A DNA stretch of 64,000 nt, taken from the NCBI GenBank assembly GCA_026874595.1, contig CM049307.1, positions 42,478,362 to 42,542,361 of the forward strand, in the 5' to 3' direction. Of this stretch, positions 26,684-63,478 are shown piece by piece (position 1 is the first letter of the stretch; each line of letters begins with the position of its first letter). The notes beneath the pieces are model-generated. The model worked only from the letters and a program-made list of their open reading frames with translations. It was not told where the DNA came from and did no database searches. The DNA comes from Sipunculus nudus. Lineage: Eukaryota; Annelida; Sipuncula; Golfingiida; Sipunculidae. The position numbers were made by a program, and so were the translations under genes.

Positions 26684-29600
26684 GTGCCTTATTTTGCATT
26701 TTGACCAAACTCCTCCAACCATACACACTTCGGAAGTAAATATGTGCACTTTATTTCTTTTCTTTAACTTACCAGCATCCCACCTATTTTAAAATCCTTT
26801 TGAGGTTTGTCTTAAAAGCATGTTGACATAGGGTCTTTCAGACTAAATTAATATGTTATTTGAATAATTTAAACTAATGATAACAAAATCTTGCTCAAAA
26901 CTGCTTAAATTATCATTCAAGACCAAAAGACTGACTGTACTTGATTTCAGCCTTGTCTTAAAAGTACACACAGATATTATAGTGAACCATTCATTAATTA
27001 GGATGAAGTTTCATCAGTTTTATGATACATTAAGAAAAGGTTTCTCTGTTTGATCAAAAGTGATATCCAAAAATGCAAGCCATTATTCCAGAAATTATAG
27101 TCTTCATCTCACTTTTCACAGATGAAATTTAACCATATAGCATGGCCATTTTGGGTGAAGGGATCATTTTCATTTGCCGACCAGTACTTTTAGGAAGGAA
27201 ATTTAAGCTTTTAAGTTTTTAAATTTGTTTTAAATGATGTAAGAGTCAGAGATGTTTAAGTTTTGTAAGAAGAGAATTCCAGACCTTTGGGGCTATGAAA
27301 CTCAAGGAACATACACCAACTTTCATGCAATGCTTTGGTACTTAATTCCAATTTGGTACTTTATTCCAGTTTGGTGCTTTATTCCAATTTGGTACTGATT
27401 CCCCTGCCTGACAATATTGCATGCAGTGAAATAGATAAGATTAAGAAAAAAACTGTGCATTCCCGGAGAGATTTATTTACAAAGAGCTCCAGGGAGTTCA
27501 TTGATACGCTTATCATTTTCCTATTAATACTGAATGCAGAAAATATTAAAATTGCTACCTTAACTAGTTACTAATTTTGCATGACCTTGCACTTTGGAAA
27601 AAAAAAATTCATCAGTTTTTTATTTAGATGGATATATTTTATTTATACAGACAAATTTGTATAGTTTTCATTAGTCAAAGTGTTCTCTGCTTGTAACATT
27701 TGCTTGCAAATGAAAAGCTGGTCATAAAATCACTGAAGCACATTCACCTCTGAGGTTGGACCTGGCTCCACCTGCTGGAGACTTCATAAACTAAGCCAAT
27801 TTCCATTTTCGGTTCTTGACCACAAATATTCACAAAACCTGCTTTTGATAAAGAATGCTGAATTCTGATTTTCGGGTTTAATGATATGTCTTTCTTCAAA
27901 ATTTAATTAAGACACATTTTTTTGCATAGCATTGCAAGCAGCATGAATATTTGACATATGCCTTGCATCATTTTGCCAGGTAAACTGATGGTTATATTTT
28001 TGTTACCTGCAGAGAGTGCTTTTTGATACATATTTACTTTTGCATGGTTCATTTATTACTCTTTTATGTTGATATTATGATTTTTGCACCGTTTTGTTAT
28101 TATGCATGGTTTGTAGACGAGGAACCCTTGAACCAACCTGACTTCCCTAACATTCCCAAAGGTCTCAAAACTTTAAAAGTTGAAGGTAGGTACTTGGTTT
28201 AAATAAATACATTCTGTCAGTGTATATTGTATATAATATGCTTGGCATCACTCTTAGTTTGCTGATGATTTCTTTTCAGGAAGATATATATTCAATCTGT
28301 GATTTAATATTCTTTTATTCAGATGTCAGGTCTGTGGATAATTGCAAGTGTTATTACATGTTCATTGAATGAAATAAAAAAAAGAGAATGATGATCAGTT
28401 ATCAGTGGATTACTTAGGCAATGAAAGTAATGACCAGACAAGCTCACTCTTGCATCTTGCTGTTTAAAACAAACACTATTAGCATCACATATATTTTGTA
28501 TAATTCTGAAAGGTCTTAGCTTACAATGGGTTTGTTGACGTTATTAAGAATATGTTTGGATGCTCATGAAAGATAGATTTTTAATGTTTGTTGCAGCTTG
28601 TGTATTTTGTTGACAGAATTTAAGTTTGTTATACAGAAATCAGTTTTAATCATATGGATAATGTATATGTCAGAGACGAGATTGAAATCCAGGCGGATTT
28701 TAAATTCGCCTAGGCGAGATTGCGATTGTGATCTCGCCTAGGCGAGATTGCAATTGTGATCTCGGCTAGACAGATTTTAAACTCGCCTAGACAAGATCAC
28801 AATCGCAATCTCGCCTAGGCAAGTTTAAAATCCGTCTGGTGTCATCCAGGCGAGTTTAAAATCTGCCTGATATTACTTAGGCGAGTTTAAAATCTGCCTT
28901 GGCGAGATTAAAATAGTGATCTGATCTAATTTCCTAATATATTAAGCATTGTAATTGACATATGAAAGATGTTTTCAGTCGGATTTTCAATATTTAACAC
29001 TGAATGGTTATATATAGTTAAAAGGTAATATATTTATTAATATTTACAGAATATTATAGTATTAATGTAATAATTAACTTTTTTACAGTAATGTAATAAT
29101 TATTCATGTGATAATTAACATGAATTTTGGAAACAGAATTATGAAATAGATATTTGATTATTATTTGCACCTTTTATGTGTTTCATGTGGTCTACAGCAT
29201 CCTTATCATACCAATTATTTGCTAAACATTAATTAATCTTTATTTTTTTCTCCAGTTTTCTTAACAACCTTGTGATTGTAAATATCACTAATAATTTTTA
29301 CAAAAAAATAATTTGTAATTGTATTTAAATATATGGCAATTAGAGAGTAACAAGAGGTATATTGAAGCACACTTATAAGATATTATGAAGAGCAAATCTG
29401 GGGGAAAAAGTCATCCACTTGCATATTGAATCAATCATAGATAGATATACAGATAGATAGATTAGTCTAGATAGCTATTACTTCACTATTTAATGAGTAT
29501 ATTACACATTAACATAAACAATCATCCTATTTGATAATTCTTACAGGACAGACAGAACAAATTAGTTGGTTGATCTAGTTTAAATGTTTCTTTTCACCCA

Positions 29601-32600
29601 GGTATTCAATACTCAACAGTCAAAACATGTACACTTATGGTACAAAATATGCAGGGTATCAGTATTTATGATGGACTTTGATACACCATCCTTTTTTTGG
29701 TAATTAAACATCATATGTGAAAAGGTAAAAGTTGATACACAGATGTATGCATGTGAATATTTCTTTGTCTTATTTAGTCTTTTCTTATAATGTATATAAT
29801 ATTCTTCTGATCTTTTTTTTTAATGTTTTGTGAGGCATTTTGTGAAGCTTCAATATTTATGTAGACTGTGTTACAAGATAACTGCCTTTTTTTGTATTAT
29901 ATCATATCAGAAAAAATATGATTTCCAGTTTCATAGAGTGATAGATCATTTATGCATGTGAACATGCATTGAATTATATTGATAAAAAATAAATGAGCTA
30001 TGTTCCTTTTGTCTTTTTAAAATACTACATTACTAATATTACTAATACCAGTTTCCCTTCAAATTAATATTGACAACAAAATTATTATGTAAATAATCAG
30101 CATCAGCCCACATCATATATCATTTAAATATGCCATATACAATACCAATGTAAGTTTCTTATTACCTAGTTTATAAATAAAAATATAAAATAAAAAAATT
30201 TATGTTAATTATTACATAAATATTATAATATTCTGTAAATATTATTAAATATATATTACTTGTGAACTATACATAACCATATTAATAAAAAATATATAAT
30301 ATAAATATTCCATTTCCAAAATTAATGTTAATTATTACATTAATAATATAATATTCTGTAAATATTAATAAATATATTACTTGTGAACTATACATAACCA
30401 TTCAGTGTTAAAATATTGAAAATCTGACTGAAAACATCTTTCCTAAGTCAATTACATTGCATAATTTATTGGGAAATTAGATCAGATCACTATTTCAATC
30501 TCGCCTATGCAGATTTTAAACTCGCCCAAGTGATATCAGGCAGATTTTAAACTCGCCTGGATGACACCAGACAGATTTTAAACTCGCCTAGGCGAGATTA
30601 AAATCCTGGCCTGCTCCATGATGTCTTTTCATCTCACCTAGGCGGGATTGCGATTGTGATCTCGTCTAGGCGAGTTTCAAATCTGTCTAGCCGAGATCAC
30701 AATTGCAATCTCGCCTAGGCGAGATCACAATCGCAATCTCGTCTAGGCGAATTTAAAATCCGCCTGGATTTCAATCTCGTCTATCACATATACATGATCA
30801 TTTGTGATCACTGATTATGAAAAAATTACCAAACACCAATCAGTTTATTGTCATAACAATAACAATTATCATGTGATATATATAGCCACTTTGCTCTGGT
30901 CTGGCCTGTCAAGAAAATTTTATTTCAGCACCAAACTGTGTCGGGGTGCCAAAAGTATTAATTGTTACAATAAAAATATCATAGTGATATTTACCAATAA
31001 AGCTTCACCAGTATTAATTACAACTTGTGTGACCTGTCAATTTCACATGCTTGTAAATTTTTGGTTCCAAGTTTTTCTTTGGTTAATTATGAAAATTAGA
31101 TGCAAGCATTTTAAGTTTTTTTCACATTTTGATATTTACGTATAGAACAAGACTATAAATACACACTGCAGTTCTCTCTCTCTTTCTCTCAATATTTACA
31201 TTTGTGTAAATGTTGTAGAGATATGGTCCTGAGCCCATAGTGTATGCATATTGTAGATCAGTTCTCATCTTCTTTTCACATGGAAAATTTATAATACAAA
31301 CATATAAAAAGTATGTCATGAGTCAGACCAATTATTTTCCCAGAGGAGTATTTGGTATCACATTGCTGACTCAGGACATTCATTGGTATTCATGGCAGTC
31401 TTACCCTCTGATGGATGTTTGGAACAGGTTGTTCAGTCCCATGCAGATTACTGTAGTTAATGTTTCCTTTATTTTACAGCCATTAATGTAAAGACATTTT
31501 GAGTATTAAACATACCACAACAATTGGATTTTTATGAAACTATGTTTCAGTAATTTTGTTATTTTTCACAACTCTAAAATGTCTTTCATCATGCAAGGGT
31601 TGAACTTTGGACACTTGAAATTGCTTACAAGTCTACTTTTGCAGCACTTGAATTCTTCTCCATATGCTAGTTTTAGGAAACAGTGGATCTCTGTATATTG
31701 GTCTATCATAAAATTCCGGGTGACTGAAATTTTGGTGTTTTTATCAATAATTTGAGAAGTACCATTGTTATGTTATAACATCATCATGTTATAAAACAAT
31801 CAACCCTGCAGATACTTAGCTGACAAAATGAGCAACATATGAACATTTTTGTAAATTTTTACCTTCCCCCCCCCCCCAAAAAAAAAATATGAAATAAGAC
31901 AGGCAGATTGTGTTGTAACAGACTACAGCCATAAAAAATTAACAATATACAGGAAGAGAAATTTTTATACAAAGTCCCCTTATAATTATAATGTTTTGCT
32001 GACTCAGAGGGCCAGATTCCCAAGGGCGCCATCTACCTTGGCCAGCAGGAGAGTGAAGAAGGAGAGCTGAAACATACAGACACGTTTTACTATCTGCCCG
32101 GAGAGAAGACCACGACGACCACTACCAAGGAGGTCAAGGCACCCCCGAAGTACCACGGAGTAGGCCCCGTCAATGAGAAGGGCATCCCCATCGGGCTCAG
32201 AACTGTAAGTTTTATCACATTTCGTTTATTTTTCAGACTTTGTAGACATATTCTTGGAGCCAGCAGTGGTATCTCAAGTTAGGCTCCTTTCTTGACAGGA
32301 GAATTTGAAAAAAGCAGCAGGAAAAATTGATTTGACTGCCATTTCTGGAAATTTTAAAATTCAGACTTAATTATTGAAAACTGAAAATTTAAGGTGTTAC
32401 AGTAATTACGTTAACGGAAATAATTTTATCCTATAAATACATAATTCAAAGATCATACATTACATTAATGAATAATAATTGAGAAAATGATGTTAATTGA
32501 TGACATTGTCTTAACACTATTGGTTTGGATTAATAACGCCTTCCCATGCCCATATACAGTGTTTACCCATGTACCAACAATGATACCATGCAGCACAAAT

Positions 32601-35600
32601 ACAAGCTAAAGCTAATGCAGACCACATATTTATAAACACAATCAATAATTACTCATTTATCACCGTAGCTTTTATTTTTATCTTTTTTTTTTTTATTATT
32701 ATTTTTATAACAACTGATGTAACATGTAGACTTACATTGATCAATAACTTGTGATTAATGCATTGCTTCCAAGGCCACTCACGGTGATAAGGTTTGTATT
32801 TGCTTGTAGCTTCATCCACCATAACACATGCTTCTCAACTAATCTGCTGTTGTTTGAATATGCCAACACCATATTCAGTGAGACCTGTGTTTTAAAATCA
32901 CCTCGGGGACTGGCCAAAATGGGCCTTAATTCACAGGTGGTCTCTCTGACAGGTTCCACTATATATCCTACATGCTAATTAATAAATAACACTGTAAATG
33001 ACTTTACCCAAGGCGTATTAAACAATCGAGTTAATTTATAGTAAGGAATATTTTAGGCTATTTATATTTTTGTTTGCTGGCTATTTGCTTGAACAATATA
33101 TTTTGTTAATTTTGCTTAAGTAAAATGCATGCAAATATACTCCCCTTAAGCATGATATATCTTTAGCTTTTTATCTTAAACGCTTTATATAATTTGCACT
33201 ACAGGATATCGCTAATACCGATACTCTCATGTGTGGAGGCAGTAAATGACTGCCTGCTTGAAAAACTGCAGGCAAACAACTAGTGCCCCCTAGCGTCCAG
33301 CCTGACCAGCCCATTCATTCAACACAGCAGTGTGGGCACTGGACATAGTGTTTTTAATTGCCAATTATCCTGATGCTTATTATTCATCAGATTTATTTTG
33401 CCGTGCTAAACCTTAATACAGAACATGAAAAGACAAGATAATTCTGCATTCGGCACAGTTTGCATTAGAATTTGATCTTGAATCAACTGCCTTGTAGCAG
33501 CTGATACAATGGAAACTTACACAGGGTCTTTAGTCATTGATAAACGTCATATTTTGCAGGTTTCCTTGAAATATGATACATTATGGTACGAAACAATTGT
33601 AACCTCGTATTTATTTAATGATCATAATAATTAAAGAGATTCCATAGCGCGTATAAGCTAACAAAGTGGAGACTGTCAGTTTTGTCCGTGTTAATGAGTG
33701 TCCGGCTGAATCACGCTTGCCTGCACAAACATGCTTCCGGCTGCGCCAGCTGGTCGTTCTTCTCCTCCATCTACACGAGAAGCTGCATTAGCGATATCCC
33801 ATATTTTGTTTTGTTTTCAAAGTCATCCATTGAATGTTGCATGCAACCAAAAAATACAGATAATTTTAGTCAGTGATATAATGACTTTAATGATAGGCTT
33901 ATGATTATAGCATAGTCAATGCTTGTAATTTTGCATAGATAACATAGAGCACATGTAGTGCAGCTTGAAGAGATGATTTACATATAAAAAGACACTTTAA
34001 ATTGATGCTTTGTAAATCAGGACACATCAGCAGCTTGTAATGCTTGAAAAGTAATCACCTGTGAGTGTAATGTCATGTATGCACTTCAGTATTTTCTCTC
34101 CTGTATTAGTTGACTGATGTATATGCATGGTAATTTGGACATTTTCCTTCCAGGGAGTTGAAGAACATAACCAGAGGGAATGGTATCGTAAGATGTTTAA
34201 ATCCCTGCACAAGATGGATAAACCTGAAGGTACATGATTTAAAGATATACTAGTAGTTTCATTCCACCATCATATCAACCTTGGTTTTAAAACTGGATCT
34301 AAGTATTTATCGTGCTAAATATTTTGCAAAGGGTCACATGGCATATATTTTTCACTAGTAATTCTAAGGTTTCTGTTGAGGAAGGAATAGTTGAAAGGAA
34401 CAGAAATGATGAAATATAACTAAATAATTCCGAGGAATGCCATACCTATTCCATCCAGAATATGAATAGTGAAGTTGTGTAGTAATGTCAAACAAACTGT
34501 TAATGGTATGAATCAAATTCTGACTGCTTTAGAACCATGGCAGGTTTGTTCAAATAAATCCTGTTTTCCCATGATTGATTACAATAAAACTTTTAATGTT
34601 GATTTACAAATGAATATCTGTTTTACATTTTGCATACTTCAAATTTGTTAAGGATATTTGACAATCAACTAGCCCTGCCAGCAGGTTAGAATATTGTTTG
34701 CTACAAAAAATTCAAATGCGAGTCAGTTTTCAATTGACATAATTGAGTCTGTATGTTCAGGGCTGGCTCTCATCACAAACGGGTAGGATAGAGAACAAAA
34801 AATAGTTATATAATTTGCCACCAGGTGGCGGTATCTGTCTCAAGCATTTCAGTTCATTGATGGCTCTGTCAGCTGGTGTAATTAAGTCATATCAGCTGTA
34901 TCAACTGAGCCAGTCTTACATTTAAAATGTTTTTCTTTTGAAAGTATGTAACCATGATAATGAATTTTCTTAATTATTCTTTTACCTTACCAATTTCTGT
35001 TAAATTATCTATAATTTGAAATTATTTTTAGGTTAAAAAATAAGTCAGCTTAAGATTATCAACAATATTCTTCATAAAGGTTTATCTCAACATTTAAAAA
35101 AAAGTTTAAAGTTGTAAATAGTGCTATATTATTAATCTTTAGAACTGCCATGTTGTTTTGTAGTATCACCATGGGAGTTAGGTTATGTCAGTGACTCAGG
35201 TGCTCTATATTATCAGCATGTTTATTATCTAAATATATGTCTGATAAATCTAATCTAATTCACCTCTGTATTGATAAATGATCAGCATGTATATATGTAT
35301 TGTCTCTGATACAATTCAGGTGATTTAATCATGAAAGTGTTTCCTCTGTTTTACCAGCATGTGTTGGTACGTTATCCTTCTCGTATATTTCATGGTCACA
35401 ACCCATGTATCATAGAAGCGTATCCTTGCTTTTATATGATTACAGGTGGTGAAATCAGATCAGGTATATATACCCTGCATGCTTCACAAAATGTGTAAAA
35501 TTTGACGTGATACTTCCTTAAATGTGACACATGAAACACTTCATGAGTATTATATTATTGATCATTTGACATGTGATATAAGGTTTGGTGTTTTGTCAGT

Positions 35601-38600
35601 TTGTGTACAAAACAACCACCAGAAATAAATGACTTGATGTCCAAGGTCATATTTTTCAAAACCTAGGATGATTGTGACCCTTAGTTCTGTAGATCTTTTC
35701 TCAAGTTTCACATAAAAAAATTTGTTTCAACCAATTTTGTTCTTTAAGATCATATATATGGATTCATGTTTTCTGTTCAAATCATAAATTTTTCAGACAG
35801 TGCATATTTTCACCTCAACTTTTTGGACAGGGTCAATGGGGGAGACATGTCTCTGTTTTTGCTACTTAAGCCATTGTAGTTTAATTTAGAAATCCCTGCC
35901 AAGTGTCCATGAACCCTGTTATTGTCGGATGAGACCTTTGGACCATGTGCCTTAGGGTTTACAGTTTGTCCATGATTGACAACAATTAATGCTGTTGTAT
36001 TATTAGTTTAATCAATTAATGGTGAGGTATTTACAATATATGATTACTTCTTTAAGAACTCCACTGATAAAAACATAATTTTTTTTAACATAATAATTCA
36101 AACTAGTCTCACTGATGGGTCATGTGACTAAATTATCAAGTTCATGATAATGTTTGTTCATAATTTATGTTAATGTTTGTAACATTGTTCATGTTTGATG
36201 TTGTTTACTGGCATGTCTGTCAACAATGATGAACAAAATATTTCCTATAGTAAACTCTGAATTTTTTCCTTATGATTAATCCCTGCTAATTGCCTGCTGT
36301 ATACAAAGCATTCTGAACCTTTGAAATATATCATATATAATACAGTTAAACTACATATTTACACATCATGCATATTCATAAGCAGCTTCAAAATATCTAA
36401 TATATAAAAGATGTAGAACATAGATCTAGATAAAAGATAACACAAGCCATAGGGGTGCATCATTGAAAAATCAAAATAGAGGAGAATGCACTGGGGATAA
36501 ATGTCATAATTATACATAAATGCTGTAAATTAGAGATAATGGTGACAGTGGGGGTAACATGGTGATGATATTTGCTGATGCTCAGCTGGTATGCCATGGA
36601 ATAAGTACTGTATGTGGGGTGACTCTTTGAGTACTTGACATGGAAATAAACTACAGAATATGGGGAATCACATGTGTCTGTTCAGTAAGTGAAAGATTTC
36701 ATCATCCAGTCAGTTAATACGGTTAAGTGTTAAGCATTTAATGAATCATGTTTGGCTGAAGTGAATATTATTCAGTGGGAGATTTTGCACTCTCAGATCA
36801 TTTACCAAACCATTTCCCAATAAAGTGCAGTATTTTTCTGTTTCTTTATTTAAAACATATTTTGGTGTGAAATTTGTATTTAAGGACCCCCACCAGATAA
36901 ATATCTATGGATGTTTTCTAGCATGACCTGTACAGATGTCCATACATATAGAATATCAAATGGTAAAAATATTTCTTGATGTACAAAATCTTTCATCTCA
37001 CAGAAACCAACACCTACAGGCCGACGTACAAGTTCCCCGAGACTGACATTGAATCTGATGCCGAGAAAGACGGTAAGGAGTCATGTGACCTCAGAGTGCT
37101 GTTGTACAGAGTGTGTTGATGTGTTTAGCTGATCCTGATTTGTGAACCAAAACTCTTCAGTCTTCATACATGTTAAATAAACTTGCAGCATTTATCTGGC
37201 ATGTACCTGAATGCATCTTGATATACCCCCTGGTGAATACATGCCGGAGACATGTATGATATACCAGTGCATGTATAAACCTTACACATTAGCTTTCAAC
37301 TTTAGTCATGACCTTGGACCTACATTGACCTTGACCTTTTTAACCCTGAATTGTCTAGCAAATCTATACCTTTAAATATGATTATTTTATTACCTATGGA
37401 AAATGTTGATCAGCTGATCTGAAATCCCTTTCTTTCTAAGAGGATTCACAGCTTGAATTGTATTAGACTTGATTTGTTTTGAATTTTGTAATTTTTAAAT
37501 AGTAGATAGTAGCCATGTGAAATGAAAGGTTTCAGATGCTTTTTTATTTGAATAATTTGCTGTACTTATTTGGTTGTGTACACCTTTGATTGTATTTCAA
37601 CTGCTTTGTTATTTAAGTATGCATTATGATACACTGCAATACTTTAGATAATTTTATACCACCATTCACACATATATAGTATATTGCAAGATGATTTGGC
37701 AACTTGTGTTATATAATTTGGTCAATGTTTAGTGATTTTGATATGATCTGTGTACAGTTTATTTTGATTTTGGGATTGTGATTCACGGTCAGTGCTGGCA
37801 CTCAATATTAGTTTAATAAAAGTATTATATATTTTTCAGAAAAGGCTTGTTTTTGTACTTTTTTCATACTTTTTCAGGTGTTTATATTTTTTTACATTCT
37901 TAAAATTTTTTTTTGATTTTTATTTTATGCTCGATACTCATATACTTGTGTATATGTATGATATGCTCTTTCAGTTTTCATAAAAGTGACATTGTATTGA
38001 GCAAAGATTGGCTAAAAATAATGATTGGAAATATGAAATAATGAAGATTCTTTTGTTATAACTCCTGAAAAACTGATAAATTTTAAACCTGTTCCTTTTC
38101 TCAGAGCAAAACCATATCGTAAAACTGTGCGAAACATTACACCCTTGGGCGATGATTTATACTTTTTCATACTTTTATTCAGACATTTCTATACATTTGT
38201 ACTTTTGCAAGATCTTGTACTTTTTTTTCGTAAAATCCAGAGTGGCAGCATTGCACTGTGCAGTCTTGTACCCTTCTCCTTTTGCATGATTCTGATGCAT
38301 GGCATGGCATGTTTTATTTGAAATAGCTCTGAAAAATGGCCATGCTCACGATGCAAGCAAGACATCCAATAAAGGCATGAGAAAAACAGGTATGGTGTTA
38401 ATGATAATTAAAACAGATAAAATAAGTTGTGAAAAGACATCCTTCACTCTGACACAGACTTATGTTATGCCACCTTTACCTCTGTCAATACTTAACAGAC
38501 TTGGCCTGTATCTGCAAAGCTCTGTAATTTCAGCCTGTTTAAGCCTACATTTGACTTCTTTTCAAATAGGAACTTAAAGAAATAATTGGCCTTGGTTTCA

Positions 38601-41600
38601 TTTTATATAAAATAAAACTAAAGTAATCACCTGGAGAGGGTTGATGTCCTGTCAGGAAAAGGTGGCATATTTTTATCCAGTAACAGTTTACAAATCCATG
38701 TAAAAATGCTGGACATATCCAGGAACAACGCAGTGACCTCTGGTGGAGATTTCACAAAACACTGAAGCCCTAAGAAGTCTGCTTGTATGCTAACTTCATA
38801 AGAATCTTTAATAAATACATGTATAGTAGGAAGATTATAGAGTTCCCCTGTGTTGTAATAAATCCTTTCTTTACATTTCGAGGATATTCTTGTCATTCCA
38901 TCCTTTGGCTGTCAGCAGTTGTACAAAATCAGTAAAATCTTAAACTTTAATACCACCAGTGTGATATTAACTGCAGGGTGCAGTTGCAGGGTTGAAATTA
39001 AGGGGGGGGGGGGGAGTAGCAATGGGAGATTGAGGTTATAATTATTGGTTCCTTAAAGATAAATTCAAATCATGTCAGTCTGTAAGATTTCATGTGTCAT
39101 CAATTAATTAAGTTCTAATTGATGCTGTTTATATGATAAAATTACCAGTATATTTCCTCGTAAGACAGACAAATGAATCAATTAATAGTTTTCCCTGATA
39201 ATATTATTCAAATTGTTCTTCTGATTTTTTAATCATGCTCCTTCAATAATCATTATAAAAAAAACATTCTATATTATTGAAAAGCAAATAAGCCATTATA
39301 ATTTTTTGTGTCCCAGTGATAAATAGGTGGTTATTTATACCAGTCTGCAAAATGGAATTTCCTCTAAGTCACACCAAAAATGTTGGAAATTTTTATTACA
39401 GATGATCGACAGTCCACCGTATCCCTTGACCGCTTTAGTCTGCGCAAGAATGGAGAGCTCGAGCGCAAAGAGAGAGAACGCATGTTCACCCATGAGTACA
39501 GTGGGTCACGCAAGAGGCAAGTACAGTTTATAGGCACAAAAATTACATTAAAATTATGATACTGGATGTTAAACTTGAGTTTAACTTGCCAGCATATCAT
39601 GTATGAAATCACAGGGACATTGTGTATTTTAAGCTACAGTGGAGCTTTGCACCAAATAATGTCCATCCCAGCATTACAGAAAGTGTGATTGTAATCATTA
39701 CTTTTATCAGTTGGAGGACAGAGAAAAAAGAATTAGAATCCATTTTATTTATTTGTAAATTAGTGCCATGTGGAGTTGCAATGTTTTTTTCCTATCTCAT
39801 AATGTTACAGGTAAATATTGCTTTTAAAATGTGGCATTGATTGCTAACTTGGTATGTTTTTCATTTGCGTACACACTCCCATAAAAATAGTCATCCATAT
39901 TTTACATTTATGTACAAAATGAGGTAATAGTATTGTTATATATTGTAATATTGACAATAATGGCCCAGTTGCTTATCAGCCCCATCTAGTGTGTTTTTTG
40001 AAACAAATTAACCTTTATAGAGATATACTCATGGAGAAATTTCTACATTTTGCTAAGTAGAAGAACTATAAGAACATGAATAATGCACCAATATGATGTT
40101 AACAAGAGAAAATTTTAAAAAAGGCTTAGTTCCAGGCATGGACACTAGATGTCATGACAAGCAGCTATGGTATACTGTGGTTGGCTTTTTGTTTGCTAGG
40201 GTTTTGAATTTGTGATATTCCCAAGAGAGAAATTATTGTGAAGATATACCCTTCATGAATAAGACAACCAATTTACACATCTCATATATAAGAACTATGC
40301 CTGTAGTGTGACATGGCAGACGTTTGATATTATTTATATTGAAAGACCTCTATTTGAATTTATACTTGTTTGATGTTCCCTGGGTCCTTCTCAATTTGTA
40401 AAGATGTTTGCAGGCATATTAAATAAGTCTGTATAGTGAGATCATGAAAATAGAACCCTAGCAAAACACTGAAAAGTGCAAATTGCGAAATTTTCACACG
40501 GCGTGTATGAAGCCAACTACAGTACATGTATTAATAAATAAAACTACACAGTGGAACCTGTCAGAAAGACCACCTGTGTATTAATACACCTGACTATTAA
40601 GACCACCTTTGGGTGAACCAAAAGCATTCACAATGGTTAAAACAGACCTGTCTAATAATAACACCTGTGAATTAAGACCACTTTTAGCCATTCCTGTGGG
40701 TGATCTTAGTACACAGGGTTCAGTGTACATAAGATAATGAACTTATGGAGCAGGAAAGTATCACCTGCACAAAACCTCACATGGACTGATCAGTGAGATC
40801 ATCTTTGTTAGTTCAGGAGTTTTTCAGTGAATCTCAGAGGTTTTAGACTTGAATCCTTACAGGGACTGGATAATACCCAACGCACGATGGAAACTTGAGA
40901 AGTACAACAATAAGCCGTGGAGTATACATGAATATGAACCGGGCTTCTGTTCACTGGCTAAAAATATCCCTGATTATGAAAAGGTAACTGTGCCAATGAG
41001 CAGCAGAGATAATATCCTGATGGTTTGTGGCTTTGGAAGACCAGGTTTGCATTTAAAGAAGTTTATATTTTTTATTTGTACAGTTAAATAGTTAAACTGC
41101 TTAATAGATAAACATTTTTTGAGATTTTGTTTGTTTTGAAAAAAAACGACATTTGTACTGCCAAATTCTGCCAAAACTTGTTTTTCCTGATCAGTGCATA
41201 TTTTAGAAGTGATAAGACTGACAAGTTATCGTTTTCACAAAATTATTGAATTATTTGATTAGTTAAATGTGGCTGACCGAAAACTTCCATCGCTAAGAAA
41301 CTATCAGGATATTTTTGTTTTAATGGGAGAATTGCAGTTTCTGTACCAGTTGTATCACCATATGTCTCAGGAATTTAGAGTAAGGATAAAGCCAGTATCT
41401 CATTGGGCTGCAACTGTTGAAGACTACCATAATTGCAAATGGCATTCACGAGGGGGTTTCCAAAATGTCTCCAAAGGTTTTTGGGGGTTCTCAGTTTCCA
41501 CAGTTCAGTTGCAAGGCCTTGCTCCTGTGTCACTGGAATTATTACATGTTAAAACATTTTGTAAATGTCATTCGATGAACACACAACAGTTTCAAGCACA

Positions 41601-44600
41601 AAAAAATTCACAATTTTGTCACGCAAATGTTAGCAACAGTTGTATGACAAGCATGCAGGCTCCAGGTGAACTTTGGCCCAAATTTTGCTGAGATATGTTG
41701 TACGTACCAATTAGTGTGATTCCAAGTGAAAATTGTTGCTTATTCACATATTTTCTCGCAATATTTTATCTCCAACTAGTTGCCAACAGTCACTATCCAG
41801 TGAGATGCTGGCTTTAAGAAACTGCAGTTCTCATATATTTAACATACATTTAATGTTATTTATAAGGTGAGATGTAATTTAAAATATCTTGTGCACTTTC
41901 AGTGGGTGGAAACCACCCGATGCAAAGTCACGAATCGGCGTTTATAAGAACCAACCTCGTAGTATCATGGACTACGAGCCTGGTTTCTCGTCAATAGCAT
42001 TTAAAGAGGGCAAACCTGTAAGTAACGGTCTGAAGCATGAGGCGTGTGAAACCATGTTGTGGTTTGCGGCTTGCTTATGGCTAACTCGGATCAACTAGTG
42101 CTGCTAATATCTTGTACATATTGTCTACTTTTTTTTATTCACGATTGTTGTTTCTCCTTTTATGTCTATTTGTTGATAATTTTTAGCACCCTTATTATGT
42201 GTATATATGTGTATATTTGTGTATACACATATTTACATATATTCACCACTTTTGCACCATATTTCTGTCACTGGATTTTTTACCCAGTTTTCTTGTAAAA
42301 TAACCGTCTTTGTTGTCTTGCTGTATTGTCTTAGAATTGAATCAAGGAATCAGATTTCTTGGTGGATTTTCTTTGGGATCTTAAACACTGGCAGGGGATA
42401 GTGGAGCTGAAACTAAAATAATACATACAATTAATAACAATTAATATCATTGCCTTTCAAACATGGGAACATGAATTAATAATCAGCTGAATAAATTACA
42501 TTTCTGGTGCTTAAAAAATCATAACATTACACTTCATATTTTATAATAACAAATATATTTGAAATACAAGATGATGGGAGTCTGTCTATTGTCACTAACA
42601 TACGCTTCATCACAACTGGTCTGCTTTATGGGTACTTGTAGGGACTTGTGATCACAGGTTTTTCTGGGATTTTAAAAATAATCTTCTGGTCTGGAGAACT
42701 GTTCTTGATGTCTTACTAAAACGGTTAAAACCGTCATAACTGTTTTTTGTTGGTGTCAGCTAACTTAGCTTCCTTCTAAGTAGGAATTTTTTCTTTCTTT
42801 TCAATTCAATAATAGTAGACTTGATGATTATTTATCTTATCTGCAAGAATGCTTCCCTTTTGCCCAAGTAATTGAACCATATTTTATTATTTTAAAAATA
42901 ATACTTCACTTTACTGGACTGCCTGCAACTTACACTTACCAGATTTATTATATTACTAGATGTGCAGTTCTGATCTAATGCAGCAGTCTGTTCTTATGCT
43001 ATATTTGATCTCATAACAAATGTGTTGACCTTAATAGAATTTTAAGTTTCTCCTTGTTTTTTGTGCCTAATTTATCAATGAATGTACTTACTAAGTACCC
43101 GTTACAACATATAATACCAAAGTGTCAGCGGTAACATGTTGCAACATATTTGACACTGTACTAGCTTATTCTGCCAGAATGTTTTATTTGCTTTGAGATC
43201 TCCTTATTTTGTATGCATGGGTATGATCTGTTTTCAGTTCCGTTTTGCTCATAATTCCTCCAAGAGTGAACCATCAAAATCAAGTAAAAAAGTAAGTGAT
43301 ACTAGGCAGATTAAATGTACACAAATATAAAAAGCCCACGTGTGGTAACAACTCTGTGATTGGTTGATAACCGGAGTGTTGTCTGGCCTTTATGGGTATG
43401 ATGTTTGTGTAGCTCTAAACAACAGTAAATACTAGGTGACAACAGTTTAGGCTGGATGTACCATACTAATAGTTAGATCACTGACATTTATCATTACTCT
43501 GCATATCATGAATTCTAACAGAGAATTTTAGCTGAGTATAGGAATTTACATTCAAATACTGTAGAGTTACTACAAGGTTTTAAATGCAGGGTATATGGTT
43601 GGTTATCATTTTCCACAAATTAAAGAACTGGACAATTTTTTTAAAGAACAGCTGTAGAAATTATAGATGGCATATGCCTTCATTAATATTTTAACAACTC
43701 ATTGTCATTTATGTGATTTATTCTATAATCTTAAAAGATACCTCATAAAACTGATTAATTATTACAATGCTACATTAAATTACTCAACTTTAATAAATAA
43801 CAGATATTCATTTCATTCTCAGAATATGTGGAGAAGCTTAATTTGACATCCAGCCTTATTCAAAGCTCACAGTTGTATTTTCACAGAAATATTCTTCTTT
43901 TCTGTAAATTTGGCTTTTGTGTGAAATTTAATAAGCTGACAAACTGCTTTCGAAGATGAGATGTGAAGCCTGGGCATCACTGTCTTGGCATACAAACAAA
44001 AACATTCAGTGAAGTAAAGTAGAATTGACTTCCCAGATTCTCCACCAAATATGTTCATATAAAGATGGTCCCAAGACAAGATGGTGACTCTTGGTAGATG
44101 TACAGTTCATTAATATTTGATATCCTTGCTTTATATCCTCTGTATCTGTTCTTCCTGTGTGGTTTGTACAGTGTACAGCTGACTTGATCCATTGCTGACA
44201 TGTTGTATAGAGACATCTTGTATAGAAGTCTGAAGCAGTGCAGGTGTAATGTATTTAGATGATTTATTATTCTAATGTGTTGTGTGATTTTACAGGAAGG
44301 AAGGACAGACAAACACAATTCCCCAAAAGCATGTTTAATATATATGTTTCGTTCACACAAACACACAATATAACATACATATATGCTGTATAAACCTGGA
44401 ACACAAACTCAGCTGTAAAGTTTATTTTACACTCATGGTTTTGTCATTTGTATTACATAGATTTCCCATAAGCCTGATTTTGATTTACAGTAAACTGTAC
44501 CTTGGTTGATCATCAGCACCATCTAGTGTTTATTTTGTAAAAAAGTGTGTACTGTCAAGATGTATGAATTACAAAACAGAGATTGTGAGAATCTCACTAC

Positions 44601-47600
44601 TGTGAATGGTCCTACCTAGAATGGCCATTCTTTATAAGCATTAATTTGATAATTTATAAAACAAACAAACAAGAGATGGCACTGATGGGCAATATGGGTT
44701 CTTTTTACTGTATAAATGCTTCCTGTGCACATGGCATGTCTTGATTTGATGGGACATAAAAACACTCCATATTTTACAAATTTTAAGAAATAAGAAATAG
44801 GATTATTATTCATTAAAGATAACCTGAACAAGAAGTCCTTTGTGTGAAGATATATAAAAAGTGTCCTAGATGGAAAGGCATGACTTCAAGGAAAATCTGA
44901 AAAGTGTTTAATTCACACAACTCTCCAGAAAACAGCCATTGCTATGAGTCCAGAATATTGAATGATTAGTCGTGAACTGAAGGTTTCTGGATCAGAAGTT
45001 CTACCATTAACATAATTAATGTAAAAACTTCTTGTGGCTAGTGTTATTGGCAGACAAGTGAATTAATAATCTTTAACCATATATGAAAAATATAATAATA
45101 AAGGTATTAATTTTCTCAGAAAATTTATATAATATTTAATTATGTAACTAAATAAGCTGTGTTACAATTTGTACAAATTTGAAACACATTTCATTCTTTT
45201 TCTGTAACACTAAAAGTGTTTGTCTGTCCTTCCGTACTGATTTACCTGTGTCAGGAGTTGTTGTTTTAGAATTTTGCAGCTTTTGGGGCTGAGGGAGCAG
45301 GCAAAATGATATACTTTGGTCAAGTGAAAAAAAAATCTACAAAAAATATTACGTGTGTTTTATATTTATTACCGTTTTTGAAAACTCGATTTAAATATAA
45401 CAGAAATCACTAACTATAAAAAATTGAAAAAATGTAAAAAAAATTCATGTTTATGCACAATAATGGAATTAAACTGGATATAAGGTAGATCATATATTAT
45501 AGCATTGTTCCCTGTACATTATGTTTGTATTTTAACTCTTCTGTGCTTTTGAATGTTGTGTGTATTTTTAAGCTGAGATGAGTTTGTTAGTTTTAACAGT
45601 ACTGGAAAGTAAAATGCATCCCTTATTTGTTCCAACTGTATCATAGATTTATGTATCAAGTAATTTCTCTGATTCTCTTATAAATGGTTCATTTTTGGGT
45701 TAGTTTGAATGGTCAGCTTTTAAGATGAGTTGTAATTATTGTAATCAATAAGCTTAAATGATCTGCCTGATCACTTTGCCTGCTTCCACCTGCAGTAGTT
45801 AAATAAACAGGTTTAAGGGTAGTGTTCATTTATTGTAATGTCTGAGGCCTACAGAAGTTAACAAATAATTTATTCTGTTTGTTTGGGAATTTATAAAGTT
45901 ATGCTATATTGGTAAATTTACAGTATATGTTGTCTCAGACTTGCACTCTAAATGAATATACATCTTGTGGCTTATATTTCTCACAATTTGCAGTTCATTA
46001 CACCCATTTTCAATCACCCATTTCAGTGACACTGTCAGTTAAAGAGTTTCACCTTTATTTTAGAACTAATGATATGGGGCTGCATATATAATGATATGCC
46101 CATGATGTCCCTTGTGGATCTTATGAAAATGTGGGAAAGTTGAAATTGGTCCTTTCAGTGGACCCAGTAAGGGCTCCTGTGGAGCTGCATACACACCTTA
46201 TACAGTGGTTATATACTAAATATATTCATTATTTAGCTCAAGGCCTCCATACAATTTAAACTCTGCTTAAATTGCAGGGTGTATTACATATTGATACCAT
46301 TGGATTGGACAAATTGCAAGAATGTTCCAGTGAATGAGATCTAGGGTCTGGGTCAGACTTGAGATACACAGCTCTCATTGGTTGTAAATTTTTTTGGCCC
46401 AGTGCCAAGTCCCTGGTGGTGATACAAAGGAAGTGCAGCTTTTTTTTGAAATAAAAGTGTGGTTGGGTGGATAGAGTGTGGCTACTGTATATGGACTGTA
46501 AGAGGTGCCATTGGTCAGATTTTATCACAGAACACCAAAGATATTTATTGTCACGGCATCTGAATGTCAGTTCAATTTGGTAAACTACTTGGTAAACACC
46601 TGCAGCTATGGGGTCCTTCCTGTCAATAAAAAGGCTACCTCCATTGAGTCAGTAAAAACTCCATAAAAAGATGGCCTGGCATGCCTGAGAAATATAAGTC
46701 ACACGTTGATCACTAGGCTTGTTGAGGAGTAGCTTGTTAAGTTTTAAGACAGTGCGGGTGTTAATTGTGTTGCTGAGCTTGTGCTAGGACTGTACCAGTG
46801 TTTTCTATTGCATGTCTGCGCAGGACGAGGAAGAGCAGCGGGCAGAGGTACTCCCAGTTTTATATTGCTTTCTGTACACTCGCTTTGGTTAAATTTGCTG
46901 CATTATGTGGAGAAAACCATATATGCTCCCAATTTCACTACCCCTGTTTTTAGACAATAATTCATGGTAAAATGTGCTGAAGTATACCTTTTGCAAAGCT
47001 GTATATGTACCCCCTCCTTATGAAAATTCCATATTATCAACTTAAAATGAAAGATAATGGAATGGATACATTGTATTGTGACATATCCTTGATGGCCTAA
47101 GCTGATGATCTTGAAAAAGATACATTTGACAACATGTCTGTCGAAAGATGACCTGGTAATGACATTTTTACATATCACTTTTAGAGGACATATACTATCC
47201 CACATTGCAGGGAAATGATCACTTCAAAAATGAGGCCATCTTTTTTTGAGGCTCTGCAGTTCAGTAACATCAGAAAAAAATTACATTTTTAGCTCAGCTG
47301 ACTTTCAGTCATGCTGGGCTATAGCGATGGGTCTTTGTCCGTCGTCCTTCCGTCTGTCCGGCCGGCCGTCCGGCCGTCCGTCCGTCCGTTAGCAGGGCAC
47401 AAATCGTAACCATAGGGGCTAGGGCCATGAACCCTATGCAGTCTTAGAGGTTATAAAAAGATCTCCTTGCAAATCTGAAATTAGGTCACTGCGACCTATA
47501 TTCTCGAAGTTATGGGGTGTGTTTGCACCCCCCAGAAATAACTCTTTGAGACAAAATTTTCATCCCAAACCTTCCATCTTTCACATACAGCTCACCTACC

Positions 47601-50600
47601 AACAGGGGAAGAACCATAATTTTTTTTAGGTCAAAAGGTCAAAGGTCAAGGTCACAGGAGCCTCTTCTTTGAAAAGCCTGTGGATGCATATTAAGCCAAC
47701 CCTTTCATCCCAATTCTTTGATTTTTCACATATAGCTCACCTACTAAGTTGGAGAAGAATCCTATAGATTTTGAGGTCACAAGGTCAAAGGTCAGGGTCA
47801 CAGGATCCACTTCTTTGAAAAGGTTGTGGACACATTTCAAGCTAGACTTTTCATTCCAAACCTTCCAGCACTGATATCGCTTCTCTGCCAACAGGGGAAA
47901 AGACCTGTTGATTTTGAGGTCAAAGGTCAAGTTCACAGCACCACTTCTTGCGTGGAGTCATTTTCAGGCAAACTTTTCAATCTGTACCTTCCATCTGTCA
48001 TATATGGCTTACCTACCAATAAGGGAAGAAGCCTATTGATATTGAGGTCAAAAAGTCAAAGGTCAAGGTCACAATATTTAATTGTTCTAAATGCTTGTGA
48101 GCATATTTCAAGTGTAACTGTTCAACCCAAACCTTCTGTCTTTCACATATGCCACATCTATGCATCACTCAGTTTGACTCAAACTTCATATTTATGGGTC
48201 TTTTTGCTTGAATAAATAACTTATTGATTTTGGAGTCAGCCGGTCAGCAGGTTAAAGGTTGCAGGTCAAAGTTATTCACCCATTGGTTGCCAAGTAATTA
48301 CACCAGATTTAAGAAGTTATTAGTTACCCATCATTTAGAAAGAATCCAGTTGATATATGGGCAAAAGGCCAAGGTCATAGGTCAGGGATGTTCACAATTA
48401 CTTATTTTATAGACCATCTCTATTTTTCTTGTATATATAACCATCCCACTCCAGCTGGTACATTTCCCTGTGTGGCTGTAATTGTGAGTGACACTGGTGA
48501 CATATGACTCCCTTTTGTATCAGCCTATTAAGTGATAAGGCTCAGTGATAGTACCTCGTTACTTCATAACAAAAACACTGTTGTCAGAATGCTTCAGCCA
48601 GGCATTAAGACTATGAGAGTATAGTATTAAGGTTTAGCTACTGATTTATAAGATGATGGGAACATTTTTCAGTTTATTTTATGGAATCCTAGCAATAAAC
48701 TTAGTTTCTTAGATATCTGAATATTTTAATATATATCACCACATATAAAAGCAAGTGTTTGTTCTCATAATATGTGGATGTGTACCTTGATTTAGGATGG
48801 CTTTTTGTTTTATTTCAAGACTCTTAGTCATGCTTTCTGCATTTATTTTCTTTCAGGTTTGGCAGTTTACCTACCCTGCTGACCCAATTGAAAAGCAGAG
48901 TGATAATAAAAAATATTGGACTTACACTTTTTACAATTGCATATCTATAAATCTGATATGAGGGCCTGGACATGCCTTTTGAATTATTTTGGGCATTCAT
49001 TACTGGATAATTTGCCCAAGTTTGGTCTCTTATTGGAGAATGTGGGATATCAAATGTCATACTTGTCAGAAATCCATAATGTCTGCCAGTTAGCCACCTT
49101 AGAAATTCTTTCTTCAGTGCAGTTTCAGTAATTTTTCTTTAATGTTTGGTCCGATTTAGAGAATGTTTGTTGTCTGATTTCAGACTTGTCAGAAGTCCAA
49201 TATGGCCACCAGGCAACCATCTTTTAATTCCTTTTGATCATATTATCTCAAGAACAGTTAAAGTGAATGCAGTTGGATGTATATTTATGTAATCTTGTAA
49301 AGGATTGGGTCAAATATTTCTGAATAAATATTACCATCATTTATAAAAGTGCAGTACAGTTGGCTTGTATTGAATAAAAATTCATACAGAAGCACCTGTT
49401 TCTCAATAATTCTTGCATGTATTTCCTTGAATTTTGCTATATATTTTGATCTTATATTTTCCCTTTGTGGTGTTCCTTTGAGACTGACAGGTTTCAAGCA
49501 AGCTGTTGGAATAGTTCCTGATAGCTTAACAATCATGCATTTTCCTCAGACCATCAATTCACTGTGTTTTAACCAGACATAGGTGATATATATTTCTGTT
49601 GTCATAGAAAATTTTCAACAAATTGGCAAATTGGTTCTTCAAAATTTGACTGGAAGTTGTGAATCTCAGTCCATGATGTCACAGGTCATGCTTGGCAGCT
49701 GAGCGTCATGACCCATGGGTCACTTGTTGTCATACTTATGACCATAAATACATAATTATCATGAATCACTTCACTACCTGCCATGATAAAAGCAGAATTT
49801 ACCTTGCTAACTGATAAAAGTAGATGGGTGTTGAAATGGAGTATAATTTACTAGTTTGTCTTCCCGGGGGTTTGTATTCTACTGGGAATTTTATGGATGC
49901 AGAAAAAAATATTACGTTTTATCTCTTTTCGTTTCCCTATCTCTTTAATTCATGATATAATTTTATTTTTAAAAAGATAATTTTGTCTGTTTTCATTGTT
50001 TGTTATTTCTTTTCAAGTTTATTAATTTTTTTCATGGAAACAGGTTTGATTTTCAGTTTGTCATGTTTCCTGTTTCATGCATTTGGTTAAAAGCTGTTGC
50101 AAGCTCATAATAAGATCTGTTTTTATGCATCAACATTTTCCATGATCATTAAAAATATGAATTTTTCGTTTTCTTTTTCTCACTGACCCCACAGACTTTC
50201 AGTTGTTTGAAACTTCAGAAAATAGACAGATTTATATTGACTGTTCTTTTAGTAAAATTTTTCCCTAAAAGTTGTTCAAATTTGAAAATATATATATTTG
50301 AGACAGTTTGTCATGTGTGTTTTCCCTATTTTCATTATTCTTTCTTTTTTAATAAATAAAGAGACCTTTTATTATTTATCACACACTGTGATCTCATAAT
50401 CTCAATTTTTTCTTGATCTCCTGTTACATAAAATCTATGATCAACCAAGCCATTAATTGATGTTTTTGCATTATGCTTAACTCTATTTTCCCTGTATTCA
50501 TGGTTAATGCAGGTAGTAAATATAATAGTGAATTTAACTGACAAAAATCCTGAGAGGGTGTATGTCCTCACAAATGTGACCGTTATCTGGACAGTAATGA

Positions 50601-53600
50601 ACCCATAAATAATCACTTGGTTCACCTGCTTCCTCACTTACCTTCTATATATTTAAGTCTTGTTTGTTTTTCCCTAGATGTATCCTTTTATATATCATTG
50701 CCCGGTTTAGTATTCATCGCATGTTTTGAAATCTTTCGATGCTTTGATGAAGAGCTTTTATATAAAGTCTTGTTTAATTCTATGCCTGAAAATTCAGTAA
50801 AAATCATGGATTTATACTACACCTGAATTATTGTAAATTGTGAAAGCTTAATATCAAATAATTGGGATAGATCAGGTCAGTAATAATTAAATTACAGGTA
50901 CAAATATCAGTTGTAGTAGAACTAGATTGGTTTCTGGTTTCAAGTAGCTGGTCAAGTATGGGATGAGTGAATGAGTAATTGTCAGATGTTTAGTTCACAT
51001 ATGGACATCTGTCTTTTATTCAGCTGGCCACTTATTGCCAGTATGGCAGGAGTTAACATTATTGGTTGAGGCAGTGCTTGGTTTGCACCAATTGTCAATA
51101 AAACCAACGGAGCTCACATATCACGAGGTCTGCACTGAGCATGCCCAGCATATAATTATCAGGATTTATCAATATTAAGTGTTACCTGGCTGTGAGGCAG
51201 GTGGGCTGGGAATAGTTCCCTGCTCAGAAGCAGATTTTTTTCATATTTTACTATATTCTGGAGCTCCTAATACCGGTGCAACTTAACGAGGTTTCACACA
51301 AGTTGTGTCTTTTTGTGGGTAGTTACCTGTGAATGAGCAGTTCAGGTAAGGCACACCCTATTTCAGCATCTGTCTCTTAATGTTCAGGTAATACCCGAGT
51401 GGACCTTGTTGTCATATTGTGTTCGGTGGGCCTTTGTGTTGATGGCTTAGCGTTGACAATAACTGGCCATGTGATCAGGTATTACATCTCATTTATGCAT
51501 TCATGCATGAGCTACCAGTGAAAATTCCAGGTGCTCAAGCCTGGGGGTTTTTTTTGGTGTCAGGTTCATAGTGGTCGCATATAGAGGAATTACCACTCCC
51601 ATGGATTGAAGCTCTTTTTAGAGCCATCTTGGTAGTGGTTGCCACGGCGATGGGGAAGGAGGGCTAGTTCCAGTTGGTCTACAGCTGTGTGTGTACTTAT
51701 GTACTTTCATAAACAGATGCTCTCAGCAGGCCAAGCTGATTGATTTTAAGCTGAGCCTTGTGTCACATTTGTACTTATTCTCACATTGATTTTGGGCCTT
51801 AGTCTGTGTGAGAATAATTACCTGTAATCACTGGAATAAAGCCAGCAAAGGGAGTGGCAGCAGCTACCTGGAGGTTCGTTAACAATTTATTGAGGGATCA
51901 TTCATTAACGGTTCTCTCCCAAGAAAAAATTAGTTTAAAAATAGTGTAAAATATAGTGAGATAGATATAATAGTCAGATACTTACTTCTATAAAAAAAAT
52001 GGTAATTTTTTCATAAACATTGATTAAATTGAGGGAGCATTCATTATTCAGTTCTGTCGCAAGAAAAGAATAGTTCAAAGATAGTGTAAAATACAGTAAG
52101 ATTCTAAAACAATAACATATTTATTTCTGACTTAGTGAAAGTGAAGTCAGCCCTCGAGCTAGTCACAAGTCTCCAGAAAGTCTGGCCTGCACTGGCTTCC
52201 TCAGCAATGACAAAGTTTGACAGATTGAGACTGTTTTTATTGATCCGTGATTATTTAAGGTGACAATAGAAGATACTCTTTGAGAAGAAGATAAACAATT
52301 TTTTATGCCATTTTTCAGTGTTTACATGATTTTGTTGAATTCTTGGTGTGATCAGGCGGGGTCCACAAAAAAAGTTGCAGGCTGTTCAAAATACAGCCAT
52401 GCGCAGGGTGTATTTCTGTGTATATAATATTTATTTCTAAAAAAATAACTATTATGATTATTCATTGACAATTATTGAGGGAGCATTCATTAACAGTTCT
52501 CTTGCAAGAAAATGAACAGTTTTAGAAATAGTGTTAAATACGGTGATATTGATCTATATAACATTAGATTTTTACTTCTCCAGAAAACAATTGTAATTGC
52601 AAATGTTTATCGCTGTGTAAAGTTTTAAACATTATTGTCAAGATGTTTTGACCATACTAACTCATTAGTATTTCATATAAAATGTAGCTACAATATTGAT
52701 GGATCTTACTCTGATAATAAATTAGTACCGGTATTACTCAGTAGTATGCTTATTCAAACTACACATAACTGAATTACACTTGATGATGCATAGTCTAAAG
52801 AGATGGGGATATTTGTGGATCTTTGATGTATTCTCTGATGGAAACTCTAATGCTAAAAATTAGAGAACACATATATATAGCATTTCATTATTACCTGAAT
52901 CATTTTCATTGAGTTCAGGTTAATTGTAGGTTCAGCTCTAACATAGTTTACTCTATAATGTGGCAATTACTCTATAACTCAATATTCCATAAGTCAAATT
53001 ATACATCAAAGAAGATAAAGGGTTTAAATCAGTATTTATGTTATTAAACAGGTTGACATATTTTGCTATACATGCAGTAAATGTGACTTTAATTCAAATA
53101 CATTAAAATAATAATTTATAAATAATAGTTTAAAATAGTCACCTGAAATATTATAGTCTGCAGTGCCAGGGACTAAAAACCTAGCAAAATTAATTAAAAG
53201 GCTAAAAGAATTTACATTTTACCAGGAAATCTCAAATCCAACACTTTTCTGTATTGATGATGACATTTTGTATTTTTTAACTGTTTATTTTTTATCCAGT
53301 CTAGTTCATATCACCATGCACAAAAGTCTACCTTAAATTGGTGGACAGGTTTAGGATCCCTCACAGTCATCCTTTTTTTTTTTGGGGGGGGGGGGGGGGG
53401 GGTTCTTTTACATCATCAGGTCCTGTCGTCTTTTCATGTCAAGTATTCCAATCATGTTTTAATTTCTTATTTTAAAAAATTGAAGGCAAAATCCGAAAGG
53501 TTTTTGACATATAAAAATATTCCTGACCTTGTTGTGGCATTTATTAACAGTTTGTGTTATTCTTCTGTTCACAGAACAAGTTCTACAATCCTCCTGTGGA

Positions 53601-62224: not shown

Positions 62225-63478
62225 GTACTTAAGATATTGGTGTATATATATATATGTTGTGATGTAGATGTAGTTGGATATATCGGATCAAAAACCCTTT
62301 GGTGTTTGTGAGTGCCATTTTACTGTGTGGTGCAATCATAGTTTAAAGATGGGATCAAAGATGTTATCAAGTTCTTTTTTCTGTTTTTTTTTTTCATTGT
62401 TTTATCGTTCACAGATTTATTGCTTTGTGCATGCCCTTGTAGTCTGACATAGCCCGTTTCAGTGTGTTAATGTAGAACAACATGTTTCCCACCACGCACC
62501 TGGTGTAGCTTTGATATTTTGTCAGATTGAACTATCACATGATGATTAATGTGTTTTGCTCATCGTTTGTCCATGTTAAATGGTAGTACAACCTGCAAAT
62601 TTTTATTCTCTGCTTGGATCTGATGAAAATATATATATTGAGCGGGACCACACACCTTTCTGTTTTATCATTTACTGATGAACTTAACTAAAAGGCTAGC
62701 TTTTTGAGCCATCTCACTGCTAATTTCATCTATGCTGGAATAGATTTACTAAATAAATGGTGCGCTGTATAGGTTCAAAATGCTTTCATGTATATAAATA
62801 ATCCATAAGATATAACAAATATTTTATTTGGTAAGAAAAAAATGGCTAAGAGGCTGGTAAAAGCAATTGCATAGAGGCTAATAAAAACAGATTTATTAGG
62901 TAAGCAGGAAAAGGAGTGGTTCAACCCCATCAGGACTAATGACAAAACCTAAAAAAAAGATCCACATTTCTGGAAAAGGGGGATCTAAGCCACAAATATA
63001 TATCTGAAATAAGAGGCAGATCCAGGATTTAGGAAAAGGAGGGGTCAAATCTAGGATGACTGATGACAAAATCTAAAAACAAGGTCCCGATGTCATCAAA
63101 AGGGGGGTTCCAGGCCGAAAATAATTGGCATGAAACCCTTTAAAACAGGTTTAGGCAGCTGAAAAAAGGGGGGGGGGGGTTCTGAACCCCCTGGATCCTA
63201 TCCTTGAAACCCTTATGAAAGGTTGTGACTGCTGAAAAAGGGGACATCCAAACCCCCTCATCCCCCCCACCCTTGATTCACTTCTGGTAAGGATAAAATG
63301 GCATTGAGGCTGGTTACAGTATTGCAGCATGCCCCCCCCCCCCCTCCATGCTGCATGACCCAAGCATGACAGGTTATCAGGGGATTCAGAGCACAACTGA
63401 TATTACAGAGATACTAGACCAGTAAGTGATACAGGGTAACAAGATGATGATTAAGTTGTTAGTATGTATCATTTGTAG
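62225..63478 (+). other. Intron after the giant exon
   Basis: Starts GTACTTAAG and soon has a short TA run (62243-62254). It holds a G-rich repeat block at about 62895-63330. The SH3-encoding exons are not in this stretch. Confidence 0.75.
62895..63330. repeat. Degenerate G-rich repeat block
   Basis: Variants of GATCCAGGATTTAGGAAAAGG-type strings, GAAAAGGGGGGATC and TGATGACAAAA.CTAAAAA recur at roughly 90-120 base intervals, with homopolymers of G (63171-63179) and then C (63332-63344). It looks like a decayed repeat. A minus-strand open frame at 63151-63396 is an artefact of it. Confidence 0.5.

Follow-up and report, generated by a model that had tools for sequence, protein, structure and literature searches.

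Mutually exclusive duplicated exons are already well known from other genes, and in human the frame-incompatible ones formed the most frequent class tallied, with 377 clusters (60%) (PMC5740500). Of 16,180 Drosophila X exons that are not mutually exclusive, only 90 share the published criteria for such pairs (lengths no more than 20 aa apart, agreement of phases and splice site type, and homology) (PMC3228551). The SORBS/SoHo adaptor family (CAP/ponsin, ArgBP2, vinexin and the Drosophila CAP) combines a SoHo domain with three SH3 domains, and Drosophila CAP has many isoforms, with 20 polypeptides described (PMC7259718). Here we describe a SORBS-family gene with the same domain set, partly contained in a 64,000 nt stretch of the genome of Sipunculus nudus (GCA_026874595.1, contig CM049307.1, positions 42,478,362 to 42,542,361; the whole stretch is called the window, and positions refer to it unless stated otherwise). 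The gene carries two neighbouring exons, 16a and 16b, that encode two versions of a segment with a YEPG motif. They are very likely a mutually exclusive pair, kept exclusive at least by the reading frame and used as a splice switch; a pair of this kind in a SORBS gene appears to be new, and is quite likely real.

The features of the locus are given in Table 1, in which exons 15 and 17 were located by reading and by phase. Coordinates, lengths, AG/GT flanks and both peptides had been given for the pair in an earlier note on this DNA, and all are correct. Exons 16a and 16b each finish a codon begun by two bases of exon 15, and no codon is split where either of them joins exon 17. The in silico joins 15-16a-17-18 and 15-16b-17-18 are both open, which bears out the proposal that the shared phases allow either exon to join exon 15 to exon 17. 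The stop predicted for double inclusion was also recovered, as the 15-16a-16b join at the main sites reads YEKWVETTRCKVTNRRL up to a stop, i.e., WVETTRCKVTNRRL and then termination, with 14 codons before the stop. An open frame is in itself weak evidence for an exon, since the same phase is also open in 248 of 2,017 AG..GT stretches of 61–181 nt whose start lies in the region from exon 15 to exon 17.

Table 1. Exons, splice sites and an intron repeat of the SORBS-family gene (window positions).
Feature	Position	Strand	Remarks
SoHo (sorbin homology) domain, first half, at the end of the exon preceding 34154–34229	32142–32204	+	donor ACT/GTAAGT; PF02208 match once joined
Exon with SoHo second half, REWYRKMFKSLHKM	34154–34229	+	phase 0 in, 1 out
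Exon 14 (numbering of the earlier note), TNTYRPTYKFPETD	37004–37072	+	phase 1 in, 1 out
Exon 15	39402–39516	+	phase 1 in, 2 out; GC donor GAG/GCAAGT at end
Overlapping exon 15 donors	39517–39526	+	GC at 39517 (phase 2, to 16a/16b); weak GT at 39521 (CAA/GTACAG, phase 0, to exon 17)
Exon 16a, 121 nt, DWIIPNARWKLEKYNNKPWSIHEYEPGFCSLAKNIPDYEK	40863–40983	+	phase 2 in, 0 out; AG/GT flanks
Repeat in the 16a-16b intron	41371–41826	.	42 further genome matches among those listed, 70–86% identity
Exon 16b, 115 nt, GWKPPDAKSRIGVYKNQPRSIMDYEPGFSSIAFKEGKP	41903–42017	+	phase 2 in, 0 out; AG/GT flanks
Exon 17, NKFYNPPVEKPGQQTK	53575–53624	+	phase 0 in, 2 out
Exon 18, YDAREIYKKVQRGEDIPFKG	54183–54328	+	phase 2 in

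When set against the published criteria, the two exons are neighbours, have lengths of 121 and 115 nt (within 20 aa of each other), share site type and frame, and encode homologous peptides, and their double inclusion is untranslatable with the main splice sites (this agreement leaves aside the 15% homology score used in PMC3228551). They share with the tandem-duplicated, frame-incompatible exons of PMC5740500 and PMC9741552 the arrangement as homologous neighbours of near-equal length, with the same phases, lengths that are not multiples of three and an untranslatable double form; the pair described here is a predicted one. The peptides agree at 15 of 32 residues, compared with 15.6% of disordered residues conserved in PMC9741552, and are thus better conserved if the stretch is disordered, as we suppose. 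SORBS does not occur in the main text of either study. Among the literature matches listed, none described a duplicated alternative YEPG/SORBS exon, those listed for the motif letters were judged unrelated, and SORBS combined with linker terms gave no match.

As judged from the way they have diverged, the copies arose long ago from a single exon by tandem duplication, and both have changed under long protein constraint. Their best local alignment covers 31 residues without a gap and scores 82, a value reached by none of 20,000 shuffles (maximum 46), so that the likeness is not due to chance, and with the YEPG core left out, the first 18 residues have a score that 5 of 5,000 shuffles reached. 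Over 32 codons, the two copies match at 22 first, 22 second and 9 third positions (P 1.7e-4), and this bias of divergence towards the third position argues for protein constraint on both copies. Different codons are used for 9 of the 15 shared residues, and the NG86 method gave a dN of 0.44, with dS not computable. The flanking introns (250 bp on each side) hold no residual likeness, 172 and 120 of 300 shuffles being as good, which points to an old duplication. In a search of the 1.43-Gb genome, the top other match of each exon was its partner (E 0.0385 and 0.0398).

Candidates for a third copy of the exon were rejected: the only further match in the genome (E 3.04) is not convincing, tblastn found none convincing in the window, and a KYDPG at 57181 is absent from the tblastn matches that 16a and 16b give at E values of 10 or less. 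One of the two copies might be an unused or dying duplicate, with only the other spliced in, more likely 16b, which is nearer to the vertebrate sequence. About 16 bases before the acceptor of 16a there is a second AG, and the pyrimidine tract of this acceptor is modest; a very recent loss of function in one copy would be missed by the codon-position tests and be invisible to the other sequence tests made. However, both copies are open, with sites and phases kept, and their third-position-biased divergence indicates long constraint on both, which makes this explanation fairly improbable.

The frame rule rests on the donor of exon 15, a GC site that went unmentioned in the earlier note and which is the feature worth following. 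Donor scores, here and in the limits for candidate exons, are approximate values from a donor matrix. The GC donor (GAG/GCAAGT, last exon base 39516) scores 5.9, and no other of the 785 GC sites in 30000–56000 reaches that value. The phase-2 GT donors near the end of the exon score −3.5 (39483), −2.2 (39495), 1.4 (39504) and −5.7 (39525), and since none of them exceeds 1.4, leaving exon 15 in phase 2 requires the GC donor. Searches for extra exons covered the 15-16a and 16a-16b introns. An additional exon in the 15-16a intron, one that would replace the GC donor, was rejected, as none of 64 open candidates passed the donor and acceptor limits, which are passed by six of the seven model exons (exon 15 fails on its pyrimidine tract, 0.56 vs 0.6). 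GC-AG introns, a type that accounts for about 0.8% of all introns in the coding genes of the mouse (PMC7242645), have been linked to regulated splicing, examples being let-2 and ING4 (PMC7242645; PMC2490688). In let-2 of C. elegans and in human ING4 the GC donor lies at a regulated splice choice, and ING4 also has a close GT (PMC7242645); in the gene described here the GC donor precedes both alternatives, and we only infer a regulatory role for it.

Four bases past the GC donor is a GT donor (last exon base 39520) that scores 2.0 and joins exon 17 in frame. It raises the case of a three-way switch between 16a, 16b and neither, in which the GC donor at 39516 would serve the two exons and the GT at 39520 would join exon 17 to give a protein without YEPG. 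Among the scanned donors of exon 15 only this one skips both exons in frame through exon 18, the product (GSRKRQ-NKFYNPP) is open, and in ING4 splicing is known to choose between a weak GC donor and a GT close to it (PMC7242645). Against this, the GT site scores 2.0 and the GC site 5.9, a GT at that distance is inherent to the GCAAGT consensus and so proves nothing, and one of three phases would fit exon 17 by chance. We regard a three-way switch as unlikely.

The earlier note held that the frame enforces the choice and permits exactly one exon. With the main sites it does so, and it spoils the wrong products, but it leaves the choosing by the spliceosome unexplained and is only half a mechanism; the in-frame skip donor and several cryptic routes to double inclusion also escape it. 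Skipping both exons does shift the frame when the GC donor is used, as had been claimed, although no stop follows within exons 17 and 18, and from the donor at 39520 the skip is in frame. A number of observations weigh against an exclusive splice switch, the first being that skip. Open double inclusion could result from acceptors at 41928, 41949 and 41979 inside 16b, or from other, low-scoring donors, and within the 16a-16b intron 2 of 73 open candidate exons pass the limits (41780–41799 and 41790–41866, phase 0-to-2), both in or overlapping the intron repeat. A wrong-phase GT at 39500 scores 5.2, near the 5.9 of the GC donor, and another at 39810 scores 8.4. Frame exclusivity is, moreover, automatic whenever the length of a duplicated exon is not divisible by three. 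Neither of the sequence signals sought for a regulated choice stood out, although these results come from a single species and are weak for that reason: competing RNA (docking-selector) stems between the introns did not rise above shuffles, and none of the RBFOX, STAR/QKI, PTB, NOVA, MBNL and CELF motifs was enriched in 40563–42317. For the stems, the best ungapped ones between the three introns were reached by 10, 33 and 59 of 60 shuffles, and the intron duplex energies by 10, 30 and 7 of 40 (the third intron cut to 2,000 nt).

Two further explanations turn on double inclusion. Both exons might at times be included in frame through the cryptic acceptor at 41928, giving two YEPG motifs like the presumed serial motifs of vertebrate SORBS1. 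The frame does stay open, but this acceptor is 25 bases past the main AG, within the exon, and, by reading, has no pyrimidine tract, and its use would delete the conserved WKPP start; such inclusion is highly improbable. Alternatively, the pair might mainly set dosage, double inclusion or skipping yielding untranslatable transcripts (splicing coupled to decay), with the protein difference being secondary. Double inclusion does lead to an early stop, and reads joining both exons occur in 83 of the 377 human frame-incompatible clusters (PMC5740500). On the other hand, no stop arises in exons 17 and 18 when both exons are skipped, and pure dosage control would not call for two peptides that have diverged at 17 of 32 positions with the core preserved, so that a mainly dosage-setting role seems decidedly improbable.

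For the exclusive switch, which we prefer, the GC donor of exon 15 would be spliced to 16a or to 16b in different cells, depending on tissue or stage, with both joining exon 17, and double-inclusion transcripts would be removed by nonsense-mediated decay. Our best guess is that a trans-acting regulator would act on the modest acceptors and on the non-standard donor of exon 15. The likely effect would be fine tuning, in which the core of the motif stays constant and the surrounding residues change. Two other means of exclusion were considered and set aside: the 16a-16b intron of 919 nt argues against simple crowding (steric hindrance), and the splice sites are U2-type by reading, which does not fit U2/U12 incompatibility.

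By its domain content, the gene that carries the pair is a SORBS-family (CAP/ArgBP2/vinexin) adaptor, since it has a SoHo domain with three SH3 domains downstream. The two SoHo halves joined score 37 bits to PF02208 (cut-off 27), and the second half by itself falls below the cut-off. A genome-wide SoHo search returned six matches, none above the cut-off, as expected for a domain split across exons, and the search therefore does not settle the number of gene copies. The three C-terminal SH3 domains, of SORBS type, lie about 12 to 18 kb past the end of the window (contig positions 42554466, 42557186 and 42559888). Parts of the first and third score above the cut-off, and the middle one is marginal (29.7 bits, or 30.1 with neighbours in frame), although in a search of the PDB its first seven matches were to SORBS1, ponsin and SORBS2, followed by GRB2 and then vinexin. 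The position of the YEPG segment between the SoHo and SH3 domains is presumably the same in vertebrate SORBS. The segment itself matched no Pfam family above the cut-off, the 16a form alone giving a sub-threshold match to MotY_N (E 0.037). With the 16b-17-18 stretch (16b form only), the PDB search gave no credible match (best E 0.41), and of 22 bacterial or archaeal and 5 viral contig pattern matches none was confirmed by tblastn, as expected for an animal gene.

Between the YEPG and SH3 exons, one uninterrupted open frame (56554–62229) encodes 1,892 residues and is probably a giant exon of the same gene. Upstream, 21026–21604 and 24770–25417 look coding and are internally repetitive, with two copies of QSKGMAMFLSQREKNRDP and two SPTHRSI(A/T)TL units, and are perhaps upstream exons of the SORBS gene. 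The window also holds several repeats. Two copies of a 2.4-kb repeat (17398–19811 and 47275–49728) are 96.5–97.2% identical and in the same orientation, the second being within the 16b-17 intron. At 12375–13764, units of 45 and 52 bases form a tandem array of about 1.4 kb, and an inverted repeat pair (28638–30816, ~92–96% identical) contains TCGCCTAGGCGA-like palindromic units.

The duplicated segment has the form W..P........Y.N.P.SI..YEPGF, and the residues kept in both exons at aligned positions are W, P, A, Y, N, P, S-I, Y-E-P-G-F, S and A. The two versions had been said to differ mainly before the motif, which is borne out by the identities of 6 of 18 residues before the core and 9 of 14 in the rest of the alignment, which begins with SI, but the tails differ as well (KNIPDYEK vs FKEGKP). 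That the two forms switch between binding partners would be a guess. We take the segment to be the counterpart of the vertebrate stretch DWxPPDxKVDTRKYRxEPxSIxEYxPGKSSxL. Aligned without gaps to the vertebrate sequences (DWEPPDKK...YEYQPGKSSVL), 16a agrees at 13 and 13 of 32 positions and 16b at 14 and 16 (SORBS1 and SORBS2, respectively). Vertebrate SORBS1 presumably has a further serial motif of the WDYTPG type (WDYTPGDCSIL), which makes the single vertebrate copy assumed in the earlier note doubtful.

Judging by the vertebrate sequence and by its distance of 34 residues from Tyr360, Tyr326 of CAP would presumably lie two residues before the tyrosine of YQPG. At the place two residues before the YEPG tyrosine, 16a has His and 16b has Met. 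In CAP, Tyr326 is phosphorylated by Src, and its replacement by Phe slows cell spreading (PMC2777869). If the placement of Tyr326 is true, neither form here would have that site and both would keep the YEPG tyrosine, a difference from vertebrates that can be tested. As a natural pair with a constant core and varied surroundings, 16a and 16b show which residues are kept and offer two ready-made versions for binding tests. The distance between 16a and 16b (15 of 32) is about that to vertebrate SORBS1 and SORBS2 (13 to 16 of 32), which could suggest that the pair is of bilaterian age, i.e., that a YEPG switch existed in the ancestral SORBS, was reduced in vertebrates, and has three states here (16a, 16b or neither) by way of the GC and GT donors. 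This larger reading is doubtful, with perhaps a slim chance of being right; if true, the switch would change a regulatory segment, centred on a tyrosine, in an adaptor of focal adhesions.

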